Source of the DNA: Strix aluco
Taxonomy: Eukaryota; Chordata; Aves; Strigiformes; Strigidae
Assembly (NCBI RefSeq): GCF_031877795.1
Contig: NC_133971.1
Location: 63,920,463-63,984,462 of the forward strand
Direction of reading: 5' to 3'
Length of the DNA stretch: 64,000 nt
The position numbers and the translations under genes were made by a program. The notes under the pieces were generated by a model. That model saw nothing but the letters and a program-made list of their open reading frames with translations. It was not told the DNA's origin and ran no database searches. The first letter of the stretch is position 1. Each line of letters opens with the position of its first letter. Below, in pieces: positions 48,641 to 63,122 of this stretch.

Positions 48641-51600
48641 ATAGAGAACATGAGGAAGACCTTTGGATATTAATTTTATTTTCTGTTTAAATGGATAAAG
48701 TAACCCTCTGGGGCTTTAGATTTATCATATCATATTAAATTTAAAAGCACCACAATCCCACTTTGCACTCTGCAAATGTGTGATAGAGAAGCTGCCTCTC
48801 AAAACTGGCACTGGAGTTTTCCCCTCAGTTTTGTACTTGTGACCTTCCAGTGAGAATATAAGAAAAATGAGACCTCTAGGAAAAGGTGAGCTTCCATCTT
48901 CTTATTCTCCTGCATGGTAGCAGATCTACAGACAGCTCCACCAGGACTAGGGCACTTCACAGTTGGCTATGTGACTGCTGGTGCTGAAAGGTCTTATACA
49001 AATACTGCAGAGAAGAGTGGGTATGGAAGGCTGGGAGTCTTGCAGTTTGCCATAATAATTCTGCTCCTTTATCAGAAATGTTAATGGCATGATTACATCT
49101 GGAATACTTTAATATATATTTGTGTTTGCATGTATGCATACAACCTGTTAGCTGGCATTTTCTTGTGGCCTCTTCCCCAGTATTTTGATAGACAGAAGAC
49201 TGCTGTCCCTTCCTTTAAGTCATTAGACTCTTCTCTTGCTCTCATGTGCACTTAACTGAAACCATGGTTTTGCAATCAGCCATCTTTCAAATCTCCCTCT
49301 TCGGCCTTCTTTCCTACTGCTTCTCCCTATCTCCTCCTACAGCTGCTTTTCACCTTGCTCCCTGCATGCAGCCTAACTGTGAACTGCTGAAATCACCCTG
49401 GTCCATCTGTAACCAGCTCCCTTGATCTATTACAGTCCTACTGCATATCTGCTCCTCAAGGTAACCACAGCTGTGGCATACCCATGGATCCTCCTATCTG
49501 TTTTAATGTCTTTCTTCATCCATCTCTAAGGAGAGGTGACTGCATAGTCATTTTTCTCCACAGCTTTGCAGGAAGGCTTAGGATGCAGTTTCAAGATCTG
49601 ACTACGCTAATCTAATAATAAGCTGCTGCTGAAAAAGTCAGTCCTGCTCCTCTGTCTTCAGGCTCTCCCCTCTGTACCCATCTTTCTTGGGATGCTAAAT
49701 GATCTGATGAGAACTTTTTTTGTTTTGTTTCATTTTTTATTCCCCGGGTGGATTTTCCATACCTGATATATGCTGTAGTTGAACAACAGCTGTGTCTGAT
49801 GCAAACGAAGTGGTGGCAACCTTCGGGGCTTAAAGGTGGGGTGGGAACAAGTTTGCCCCTTTTTTGGCAGTAGCTAACACACTGACTTTGCTGCAGTGTG
49901 AAAAGTCTGTCTGGAAGCAAGAAGTAGGGAGATAAACAGCTGGCTACAGATATTCCCAGGAGATCATCAGTTTCTTGTGCCTGGTGGCTTTGGTGGAAAG
50001 AAAGTACCAAGTGATATGGGCAACCTGGACGAGATTATAGGAGGAAGTGGAAAGGAGCCTCCTTCTTTCGCTGCTGCCTGTCCAAAAGCAGTCTACAGTA
50101 ACTTAGATTCTGTTTGTGATTTTGGTAATTTTTCATTACTCCTTCAAAACAAAGGAAAAAGGCTGAAAAAATAGTGTCATCTGAGTTCATCACTGATTTT
50201 TGAAATATCAGCCTAAACAAAGTGAAGGCTATATCCAACTGCTTTTCAAAATAGGAATGTAGGTCGGGTTTATTGATATATTAGCAGTTATAATATGATT
50301 CAAGTTAAAGGTTATACATTTTTAGGTGTATTTCTATTAGTAAATGACAAATTTGTTGGCATGAAAAAAATGTAGTAGTACATAGGGAAGCTTTCATGCT
50401 TTTGAAATATCTTTTTCAATGTACATTTGAGGACCTGACATATTTTTCCCTTACCACAGTTCAAGAGCATGCAGAATCCTTCAGATTAATTTTAATTAAT
50501 GTGTTAAGGGCCTTTCAAAGGAAGCCCATTACATTTGTTACCACCTTTTAAAATAGAATTAAATCAGTTTCCCCAGTCATGAAAAATGTGAACATATCTT
50601 GAATGTAAATTAACTGCAGTGTTAAATAGCTGTATTGACTGTCTATGTGTCTCTTTATGTGGGCTCACATACTTTTAGCTTTAATTAAGGAGACTAATTT
50701 TATTTTTGAAGAATTATAAATTCCACAAGACAGCACAGTGAGAGGTAACATTATGATATGCTAGTTACGATGCTGTTTGAAAAAGACAATTGCATAACTC
50801 GTCTTTTGTTGCCTGAAACCATTATGTTCACATTTGAAATGCAGTTTGCAGCCTTTGTGAAAGTAGTATTCTCTTACATTAAATAACTGCTTTTATGAAC
50901 ATTTACTTAAATTTCCTAATATTATATTGTTGTTTTCTGATGCAAATACATAGCATTTGTGTATAATTCTAGATCAATGACAGCTTTTAGCTGTGGGGAT
51001 AAAAGTCCCATTTTGGCTGTGTCAGTGTGACCTGTTATACTGCTGGGTGTGTAAAACATTCATTATGGAACTTCTGTGTTTTTTACTGAAAAACACTGTC
51101 ACCTTTGGCATTTCTGAGTTAGCCAGCAAGATGACTTTCATTCCTTTAAGGCCCTAATTTAACCAAAACAGGGGATAAGAATCACTTGGGCGTTACCAGC
51201 TTCCTTGGCTGGAAATCTGTAGCACATTGTATAGAAATTTTAACTGTATGGGTTTATTTAAGGGATCTAACTCTTCCTTTCATGACACACTCTAAAAGGA
51301 TGACATCACTGTGAAAAGGGGCAGCTTTTGTAAAGGAAGCAGGATTCTTGAAAGGGAAAAACATACTCATCATCCCAAATTGCTCTAAAGATCAGCAGTT
51401 ATATTGCTGGTATATTCAACCTCTCTGCTGAGACAATCTTGTCTCACTTCTCAGCAGTAACTGTCAGTTCTGCAAAATTATTGAAAATCAGGACAAAATC
51501 AAACAGTGAAAAAGCCAGCATCCTGCTCGTTAAGCTCTCACACATCTATTCATACTCATTATTCCAAAGTTTTTTATGTTATTTTGAGATGACTTTTAAG

Positions 51601-56904: not shown

Positions 56905-59900
56905 TTCCAGGGCAAAAATCCCTAGATATAAATTCAGAAGTTAAGCAGTAGGTGTTATTGACTATATTCTCTCCCCCTGCAAGGTCAGTTTATCTTCTAA
57001 AGTACACGACTGGCGTTCATATAATCCACTAAATTTTAAGAAGTGTAAGGGATTAAGGTGTTTGTCTGAGGATAAATTGTAATCAATATTCAGATTGACT
57101 GATAAAAGAAGTGTTAATTGGTGTTAAAAAGATAGATTACTGACAACAATCAATAAAGAAAAGAGAAGCACTAACAGATTATGGGTCTGATTTTGCAGAG
57201 GTGTGGGAATACCCTGTGGGTTTTTATGATTGGGTTTTTTTGTTACAACTTTCTAATGTTAATGTTCTGCTGAAGATGGTTTCAGACAGGTGACTGCTGT
57301 GCTCAGCCTAGCAGAATCCTTTGAAGAGTTGCTAAGGCAGAACTGAAATTATAGCCTTACTTTAAAATAAAGTATTGTCAGGTAATTACTTCTAGCATAC
57401 AAGTACAATTCTCATTGATTTTGTGGGGGCTTTTTGTGTAAAATTCTAAGCCTTCAAAAGGTAGCTTTTGAACTTGGGTATTCACGGATTCCTTGGCAGT
57501 CACTGATACAAGAAGGGTGCAGAAGAAAGGAAACTAAAGATACTTGTAACTACCTGTAAGTGCTGCAGTGGGAAATGGGTCAACTCCCCTACTGACTAGA
57601 TGAAGGTATTTATTTTGCAGAAATTAATTGTCTAATTTTCTTCATTTATTTAATAAAGTTATGACATTTATATTGCATATACCTGGCTAGTATTGTCTGT
57701 TATGTCTGACATTAGACTTAAAAGTAGCAATAATTAAATTAATGTATACTGATTATATTGTTGTGTATTCCCTGTTTACTTTCTGGGAAGTATATTACAG
57801 TTCAACTTTTACTGATGCCAGAAATGGTAGTTTAAAATCCATTTATTGTAATTTTGAGCTGCAAATATTTTTTGGTAAGGATTTATGACTGTTAAGACAA
57901 TAAATCTTCAACTTGCTGATGGATGTAGGATCCAGTCTATAAGGATATTAGCCATGTATTGCAATACTGATGCCTGTGTATCTGTACACCCTCTTTTTAA
58001 AAGAAGAGTGTACATAGCGAAAGGCAAATGGTCTGTTTGGTGCATGTTTCAAACCATTGCACAGATTCCTGGATGGTGTAAATATATTGATGTTTCACAG
58101 ATCCGTACCTTTAGATCTTCCCAAGTACTATCTCATAAAGCTAGCAATTACTTTAGCAAAAGCAGTGAGTAATTCAAGCTTTTAGAATAACTTTGACCTT
58201 TTTTGTGTATAAATCATTCTCACACAGTTTATATAGAGGAATTAAAAATATTGTGTGCACATTAACACATTAAGAGTGAGCTTGCATTTTAAACATTCCA
58301 CAGTGCATTAAGTAAAAGTGAGGTGCATGGTATTGGAGAGGGTCTACAGAAGAAAGAACAGATCCCTTTCTAGCATTGTTTTATTGCTAAAATTAACCCC
58401 ATCAACTTGCTTTCACAATGTCAACAGCTGCATGGTGCACCAAGGGGCTCTTTTTGCACACAAAGATCTGTCCATAAAAGCCGTTGAGAGATGATAAGGC
58501 TATGTGCCTGCAGGGGAAAGGCAATGTCAACTTGATATCAAATTTGTGAGAAGGAAAGATGAAGTACAGGTGAAAAGGGCATTGTTAATATATCCATTTA
58601 GACTATGCAGCAAACAACAGTACAGGATACAGTATGAAGGAACATAAGACACATTTGGGTACAAGAGAAGGGCATGTGTTTTTGTTAGCCTGGTACTTTT
58701 TGTAATCAAGTTTTGTTTATTTAAGATAGGTTTAAAATGTCAATCAATCACAGCAACTGAGCTGTGAGTGCATGGGAATATCTTTGCTGAAATAGTTTGT
58801 GTACAGATGTTTGAGCATGAAGAAACTTGCCATGTGTTTTTGTAGCTAAGGAAGTGAGTCATCAGTGAAACTAGTATGGGTGGTATAGGAAAATCATGCA
58901 CATGGTCTTGGCACAGCTGTGTGCTTGTTACATTCCATGAGATATTTCATAATGGAAAACCCATTGCTCCACTAATATAGCATACCTGCATATCAGGTAT
59001 AAGTTGTGAAGCACCCAGTGAAGTCACAGGACCTTACAGATTTACAGTAAATTTTCAGTGAAGAAGAAGGGCAAAAGAAAGTCCCCAGTGTTGACTTAAA
59101 AGAGAGAGGAAAATATCCTGTTTAATGTGTTTACATGTCTTGATGCTTAATGTCTTGATGTGTTTATTGCTTAACTGCAATTTTTATCAATCAAATTTTA
59201 CAGAGCCAAAAGTGTAAGTGGGCAAGATAGTAATTAAGTCAGCAGAACTGTACAGCTAGCTGCAGTAGCAGGAAATTTGGCCTTGTGTCTAGTTAGCAAG
59301 GCTGCAAGCCCCTGTGACTCAAATGGTTTTCTGCTGGTCATATTCCTCCTTTGAACTTGCCTGTTTTCTATTTGGTTTATGTGATTTACATGGAACATTG
59401 TTCAGTAAATGATCTGTCAAAAAATAGCAATAAACAGATGTTGCCACTCTATGGTGTTTCATTGTTAATGTTCTTAATTAAAATATTTGCTTTAAATGCA
59501 TGCACACATAGATTATGTATGTCACAGTTCAGTCTGGATGTCTTCAATAGTTTCTTGAGCTACCCATTCCTCACCATTTTGAAAGATGAAGGGCCAGCCA
59601 GTGCTAATCTGTGTGTACCTCCGACTGTATTGGAACAATTTATGGCCACTGAAAGGTCAGCTCCAGAGCTTCTGTATCTCAGAGGATTTGTGCCATATTG
59701 CAGCTACATGGATGGAATGATATGCAAGTTTATGAACAGGTAGGATACAGAAATTGGCAAAATGGGTATAAGTAAGATTCTACTCAGCAAACTGAGTTGC
59801 AATTTCCTACAGTCTGTTTGGCTGCAACTACTCACCAACAGACAAGTCTTTCACAGTAAGAACATAAATGTATGGGTGTTGATACACAATGCAATTTATG

Positions 59901-62791: not shown

Positions 62792-62793
62792 AG
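62792..62793 (+). promoter_or_regulatory. CTXN3: Probable splice acceptor of the CTXN3 coding exon
   Basis: CTTCCCCCTTACCCTACAG is a strong pyrimidine tract with a CAG acceptor, 98 bp before the CTXN3 start codon. Cortexin genes usually carry the whole coding sequence in one exon preceded by non-coding exons, so this would join a 5' UTR exon. Confidence 0.55.
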
Positions 62794-62891
62794 ATAGCAA
62801 AGTGCATCTAAATGGCTTCTGTTCTGACCTCAGCATACTGATGTTGAAAGGAAGGCAGCTGTGGGATTACTTGTTTCACCTTCCCTGTATG

Positions 62892-63122
62892 ATGGATGGA
62901 GAGATATTCACTGCCACTTTGGTGCCATCTGGGAACATGACACCAAATCCCATCATGACCATAGAACAAAAAACATTTGCCTTTGTGATTTTATTATTTA
63001 TTTTCCTGGTTATCCTCATTGTTCACTGCTTCTGAATTCTTCTCGACCCCTACCAGAGTATGCCAGCCTCAACCGGGGCTGATGGACTGAAGAAAGGCCA
63101 GTTTTACTATGCTCTTGCTTAG
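62892..63122 (+). pseudogene. CTXN3: CTXN3 (cortexin 3) coding exon with an in-frame stop at 63033-63035
   Basis: Cortexins are small single-pass membrane proteins of neurons (and kidney for CTXN3); the human protein has 81 residues. Here the exon gives 47 residues: an N-terminus starting MDGE, an N-glycosylation site (N-M-T), the conserved EQK before the membrane, and the membrane span FAFVILLFIFLVILIVHCF. A TGA follows. Past the TGA the same frame continues ILLDPYQSMPAST and then ADGLKKGQFYYALA to a TAG at 63120-63122, the family's normal end. Relative to human, one codon is missing before the span, three are missing after ADGL, and the conserved Trp before ADG is Gly. The ATG at 62892 has a good context (A at -3, G at +4); an adjacent ATG lies at 62889. 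The gene is either lost or truncated. A polymorphism or assembly error is the other explanation. Confidence 0.85.

Follow-up and report, generated by a model that had tools for sequence, protein, structure and literature searches.

Does the CTXN3 gene of Strix aluco, whose main coding exon is interrupted by an in-frame TGA, still encode a working cortexin-3 (a small membrane protein, also known as KABE)? We consider it likely that the function of this gene has been lost in the sequenced genome, where it would represent either a unitary pseudogene or a null allele of a single-copy, probably Z-linked orthologue. The exon lies in a window of 64,000 nucleotides, the whole stretch of DNA that was analysed, and its reading frame is organised as follows (positions are those of the window):

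62892..63032, plus strand: CTXN3 coding frame 5' of the stop, 47 codons that comprise the N-terminal part and the transmembrane segment
63033..63035, plus strand: in-frame TGA replacing the second conserved Arg of RCFRILLDPY, putatively a CGA to TGA change at a CpG
63036..63122, plus strand: frame homologous to the missing cytoplasmic tail, with 28 codons and a TAG, three codons short in comparison with other birds

Translation of 62892-63122 yields 47 residues, the TGA at 63033-63035, a further 28 residues and the terminal TAG. When read through the TGA this frame scores 96.2 bits against the Pfam Cortexin family (PF11057, cut-off 25), and since each half also matches the family separately (46.9 and 37.6 bits), the TGA interrupts what is one homologous frame. 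The one other Pfam family to match, DUF3923, remains below its own cut-off. The best 19-residue hydropathy window spans residues 29-47, which places the TGA where the membrane segment ends, and the base following the stop is A (TGA ATT). The original prediction is thus upheld with regard to an in-frame TGA between two open halves, its position directly past the transmembrane segment and the base that follows it. It had also proposed that the stop replaces the arginine of CFRILLDPY and removes the cytoplasmic tail, in agreement with the presence of Arg at this position in all 66 non-bird rows listed in our alignment (described below). A single open frame that runs from the membrane segment into R-CF-R-ILLDPY and the cytoplasmic tail is absent, as the second Arg is the TGA and the first has become His.

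The exon had been regarded as otherwise whole, and on this point the earlier view has to be revised, because one Thr codon and three further codons are missing and conserved residues have been lost. The additional lesions of the main exon are located as follows:

62973..62978, plus strand: junction of the missing Thr, at which the QKTTFAF of other birds has become QKTFAF and ACA TTT remains
63024..63026, plus strand: CAC (His) replacing the first conserved Arg of RCFR, three codons 5' of the TGA
63081..63089, plus strand: GATGGACTG (Asp-Gly-Leu) in a single copy where other birds have DGLDGL, with three codons missing nearby

Both conserved Arg residues of RCFR are consequently lost from the frame. 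Other conserved residues that are changed in comparison with other birds include a Gly in the membrane segment (G to V), as well as E to K and D to Y replacements in addition to the R to H change already listed, and the conserved Trp of the tail is either replaced by Gly or deleted, depending on where the three-codon gap is placed. The leftover letters (ACA and the single GATGGACTG unit) suggest, from comparison with the proteins of other birds, slippage or contraction of short tandem repeats. A representative of Guaruba (P0062) also lacks the same Thr codon (QKTFAF), apparently through an independent event, and Porphyrio and Grus (P0105 and P0014) lack three codons close to the three-codon deletion of Strix aluco; the recurrence of deletions in these birds suggests that the sites are repeat-prone. 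It counts against loss that both missing stretches can be explained by short-repeat slippage, which is in frame by itself, and that the main frame is free of frameshifts and has kept its splice sites. In contrast, the adjacent stretch of intron contains frame breaks and a stop. The lack of a frameshift in the main frame indicates that decay of CTXN3 is either recent or partial.

Sequences that correspond to alternative N-termini of the protein are found upstream of the main exon start:

49748..49834, plus strand: exon-like match to the N-terminus of Pluvialis isoform 1 (VDFPYLIYAVV...), 21 of 29 residues, opening with GTG where Pluvialis has Met
57575..57605, plus strand: first coding exon of the long isoform, reading MGQLPY*LDE, with donor G/GTATTT in phase with the main exon
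57593..57595, plus strand: another in-frame TGA, occupying the Arg position of SRL in the first exon of the long isoform
62792..62793, plus strand: acceptor AG of the main coding exon, which begins at 62794
62841..62891, plus strand: N-terminal extension MLKGRQLWDYLFHLPCM, 17 residues before the usual start, the counterpart of the MMKRRRLWDYSFQLPWM-like sequence in other birds, turtles and Alligator

Splicing of the donor at 57605 to position 62794 joins GAAG to AT AGC AAA and encodes E-D-S-K, matching the ibis and bustard rows. The long-isoform start, MGQV.SRL[DN]E, is present in five rows (Alligator, ostrich, ibis, bustard and godwit), and the protein starts of gar, sturgeon, frog and caecilian (MDPVFSQ, MDQVFYRL, MDQVSSHL) resemble this exon, homology being judged by eye. 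In Alligator and the birds this exon opens with Met-Gly, which resembles an N-myristoylation signal, and in fish, frog and caecilian with Met-Asp or Met-Glu where seen. Sequences similar to the MMKRRRLWDYSFQLPWM-like extension occur in rows from fish and frogs, and a mere remnant (e.g. MLQLPWTMDGG) is left in mammal-like rows. This 17-residue extension may be a genuine N-terminus that is missing from the shorter annotation. Every bird isoform that we have seen carries a disabling TGA in Strix aluco, as the stop at 63033 lies in the shared exon and that at 57593 in the long-isoform exon.

The gene itself is identified by sequence comparison as the orthologue of CTXN3, on the basis of the Pfam Cortexin match, its nearest matches among bird CTXN3 proteins and an SLC12A2-like neighbour. 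A protein search with the frame returned 18 matches, all to bird proteins; 17 of these carry the name CTXN3 or cortexin-3, and the remaining one is annotated as hypothetical. SLC12A2-like exons are located ~190 kb downstream on the same strand (C41, ~64.176-64.204 Mb), as judged from 14 tblastn matches to an SLC12A2 query segment, which may not separate SLC12A2 from other SLC12 members. SLC12A2 is known as the neighbour of CTXN3 from human and mouse papers, and the two genes are paired in the human literature (PMC3433332). No Pfam domains were found in the first 30 kb of the window (the three plus-strand frames, E up to 0.01), and two EGF/fibrillin patterns gave no match in the 220 kb downstream.

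A six-frame search of the assembly (1.41 Gb, 202 contigs) for Pfam Cortexin, with E up to 10, identified 15 places, five of them above the family cut-off and one of them CTXN3-like; the latter is on C41 (97 Mb), scored 1.7e-24 and contains one TGA. The same search over 14 control genomes gave a single match, below the cut-off. No second CTXN3-like copy was detected by this search in the whole assembly, contig C40 included. The paralogues on C12 and C29, which are presumably CTXN2 and CTXN1 respectively, belong to the same Cortexin family and share the tail block, but are clearly distinct from CTXN3 and differ from it in having open frames and intact tails. From their size and order, C41 and C40 (49 Mb) are probably the Z and W chromosomes, so that the sequenced bird was probably a female with one Z copy and no mixing of alleles.

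The original prediction was to be checked in many birds and crocodilians, and a protein alignment that includes birds and Alligator shows apparent decay of the same protein in a number of other Neoaves rows. It contains 122 proteins, comprising the Strix aluco frame, the best 120 of 359 matches and P0019. The rows are cluster representatives in which some species are repeated (Pluvialis, Strigops, ostrich and probably a crane), and twelve rows without a species name were placed by similarity. Large clusters compress intact birds (P0002 has 85 members), and decayed non-bird proteins may sit below the best 120. Among the rows listed, the arginine at the TGA position is present in all five palaeognaths, six of seven Galloanserae and 27 of 43 Neoaves, the 16 remaining Neoaves rows having Gln (nine), a gap (two), Leu (two), Gly (two) or Phe (one). 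By the genetic code, a transition at the CpG of CGA gives either Gln or a stop. Of the 43 Neoaves rows listed, 18 have lost the first Arg of RCFR, versus none of the 66 non-bird rows. The cortexin-3 tail, which varies hardly at all from sharks to mammals among the rows examined, decays in Neoaves rows.

We defined 39 conserved sites, each conserved in at least 98% of non-bird rows, and the Strix aluco frame differs at eight of these if the stop and gaps are counted. The mean number of differences in the rows listed is 0 for palaeognaths, 0.71 for Galloanserae and 4.37 for Neoaves; the mean of 0.11 in non-birds is low partly by construction, since the sites were chosen in this group. Ten of the 43 Neoaves rows listed show no difference at any of the 39 sites, and many Neoaves therefore keep the protein. 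No passerines are named among the best 120 of 359 matches, in which clusters hide members.

Seven of the bird rows listed bear a LOW QUALITY label, and two of these are the rows with gaps at the TGA position, Morus bassanus (P0012) and Leptosomus discolor (P0069). As in Strix aluco, these cortexin-3 records have no residue at this position (CF-ILL) and are changed at other conserved sites too, but they do not have its two deletions. We infer from the protein records that the two gaps represent stops at the same codon, because missing Trp residues in two other LOW QUALITY rows, Chlamydotis and Rhynochetos, fit stops that were dropped by the database.

These comparisons also bear on whether the lesions stem from mistakes in sequencing or assembly, or from a rare allele carried by a single bird. 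The bird lineage in which loss had been proposed is represented by one assembly only, which would be in keeping with either possibility. However, two stops in separate exons, together with two in-frame deletions and several residue losses, exceed a single base error, other Neoaves rows lose the same residue, and the probable presence of one Z copy, as suggested by the W-like and Z-like contigs, leaves no alleles to be mixed. We regard error or a rare allele as rather unlikely.

For a local yardstick of constraint, we used bird records whose predicted proteins run through the intron preceding the main exon, in those birds in which this intron is open, which biases these birds towards lower change counts. 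Columns required at least four other rows in the CDS and at least three in the intron, and gap columns were excluded, so that deletions are uncounted and stops are counted. Changes unique to Strix aluco occur in 8 of 70 CDS columns versus 14 of 72 columns of the adjacent intron (p = 0.25); in this small test its CDS rate is not distinguishable from its intron rate. The intron figure is frame-corrected, the uncorrected count of 31/66 being inflated by a compensated frame change. The CDS rate amounts to ~0.59 of the intron rate, and from this ratio and the small test it is possible that residual or recent constraint acts on the CDS. In three birds chosen post hoc for an intact-looking CDS (P0021, P0028 and P0030), changes number 4/221 in the CDS and 28/215 in the intron (p = 4e-6). 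Compared with this post hoc set, the CDS of Strix aluco differs with p = 0.0017 and its intron with p = 0.18. When six birds are pooled the values are 21/440 for the CDS and 47/353 for the intron (p = 3e-5), and the excess in the Strix aluco CDS has p = 0.045. Taken alone, constraint is not visible in P0031 (CDS 4/74, intron 3/58) or P0038 (6/73 and 4/36) and is visible in P0053 (7/72 and 12/44, p = 0.019). The intron is somewhat faster in Strix aluco, and a faster lineage may therefore explain part of the CDS excess.

A CDS rate below that of the intron would also be in line with a truncated protein of 47 residues (or an N-extended form) that is still made and useful, its C-terminal helix being inserted in a tail-anchored-like manner, perhaps in the other orientation. 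The frame 5' of the TGA is open and retains the sequon NMT, the hydropathy of the helix is kept, and the TGA is apparently in the last exon. Nevertheless, conserved residues are gone from the part 5' of the TGA as well (G to V, R to H and one Thr), and this part shows no visibly better preservation than the tail, which makes a useful truncated product improbable. It is far less probable that the TGA is read through, or decoded as selenocysteine, and full CTXN3 still made. The frame past the stop does still match Cortexin, with the 37.6 bits given above, but this tail has lost the Trp and further conserved residues along with three codons, the base after the TGA is A, and the same would have to happen at the second TGA, which lies in a different exon. 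Moreover, no Rfam family reaches its gathering score in the window, which covers ~0.9 kb past the gene, although a distant SECIS is possible. A working copy elsewhere, with the one described here being a W gametolog or some other duplicate, is very improbable in view of the single CTXN3-like match in the six-frame search, with none on C40, the kept synteny with the SLC12A2-like gene and the Z-like size of C41.

Loss of CTXN3, as the original prediction had read the TGA, is supported by the second TGA, the two in-frame deletions, the lack of a second copy in the six-frame Pfam search, the intact paralogues and the decay in other Neoaves rows. In this process constraint on CTXN3 would have been relaxed first, as a condition shared by many Neoaves, with losses added subsequently. 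Deamination at CpG, converting CGA to TGA, is likely to be the simplest route to the stops at both conserved arginine positions, and would have hit the first exon of the long isoform and the spot right past the membrane segment that is common to the bird isoforms seen. At most a short protein would result, ending inside or right after the membrane helix and devoid of the two arginines and the tail. The TGA apparently lies in the final coding exon, and the transcript may therefore be spared nonsense-mediated decay. A protein of this kind, with a helix at its extreme C-terminus, would not be expected to keep the normal orientation and would be handled as tail-anchored or degraded; truncated CTXN3, with its helix at the C-terminal end and without the conserved arginines, may thus be either tail-anchored-like or degraded. 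We lean towards the view that CTXN3, which is nearly invariant among jawed vertebrates, became dispensable early in Neoaves and was lost repeatedly in separate lineages, several times via the same CpG arginine codon, a reading that draws on protein records, the two putative stops and the erosion of amino acids.

The Strix aluco gene shares the frame, membrane segment, tail motif, N-terminal extension and long-isoform exon with CTXN3 of other birds, and differs in its two in-frame TGAs, the 1-codon and 3-codon deletions and the loss of both RCFR arginines. Unitary pseudogenes are single-copy genes with disabling mutations and no intact copy; this locus, at which the disabled state may be fixed, resembles them in being a disabled single-copy gene with no intact copy found by the six-frame Pfam search. 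No report of CTXN3 loss in birds was found in the surveyed literature on CTXN3 and cortexin.

Pseudogenisation is an ordinary kind of event, and what is unusual here is the conservation of the target protein. A mouse study reports that deafness and vestibular dysfunction accompany a 303-kb deletion on chromosome 18 that spans Ctxn3, Ccdc192 and six noncoding genes. It describes expression of Ctxn3 in strial basal cells and fibrocytes, and in the view of its authors further study is needed to establish the responsible gene within the deletion (PMC8928630). Another paper describes proposed roles of CTXN3 in schizophrenia and in amyloid precursor processing (PMC4367835). If the loss is real, hearing in birds that lack CTXN3 would inform the question of the deafness gene as well as these schizophrenia and amyloid precursor proposals. 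If repeated loss is also true, Neoaves would constitute a natural knockout set for a poorly understood membrane protein of brain, kidney and inner ear.
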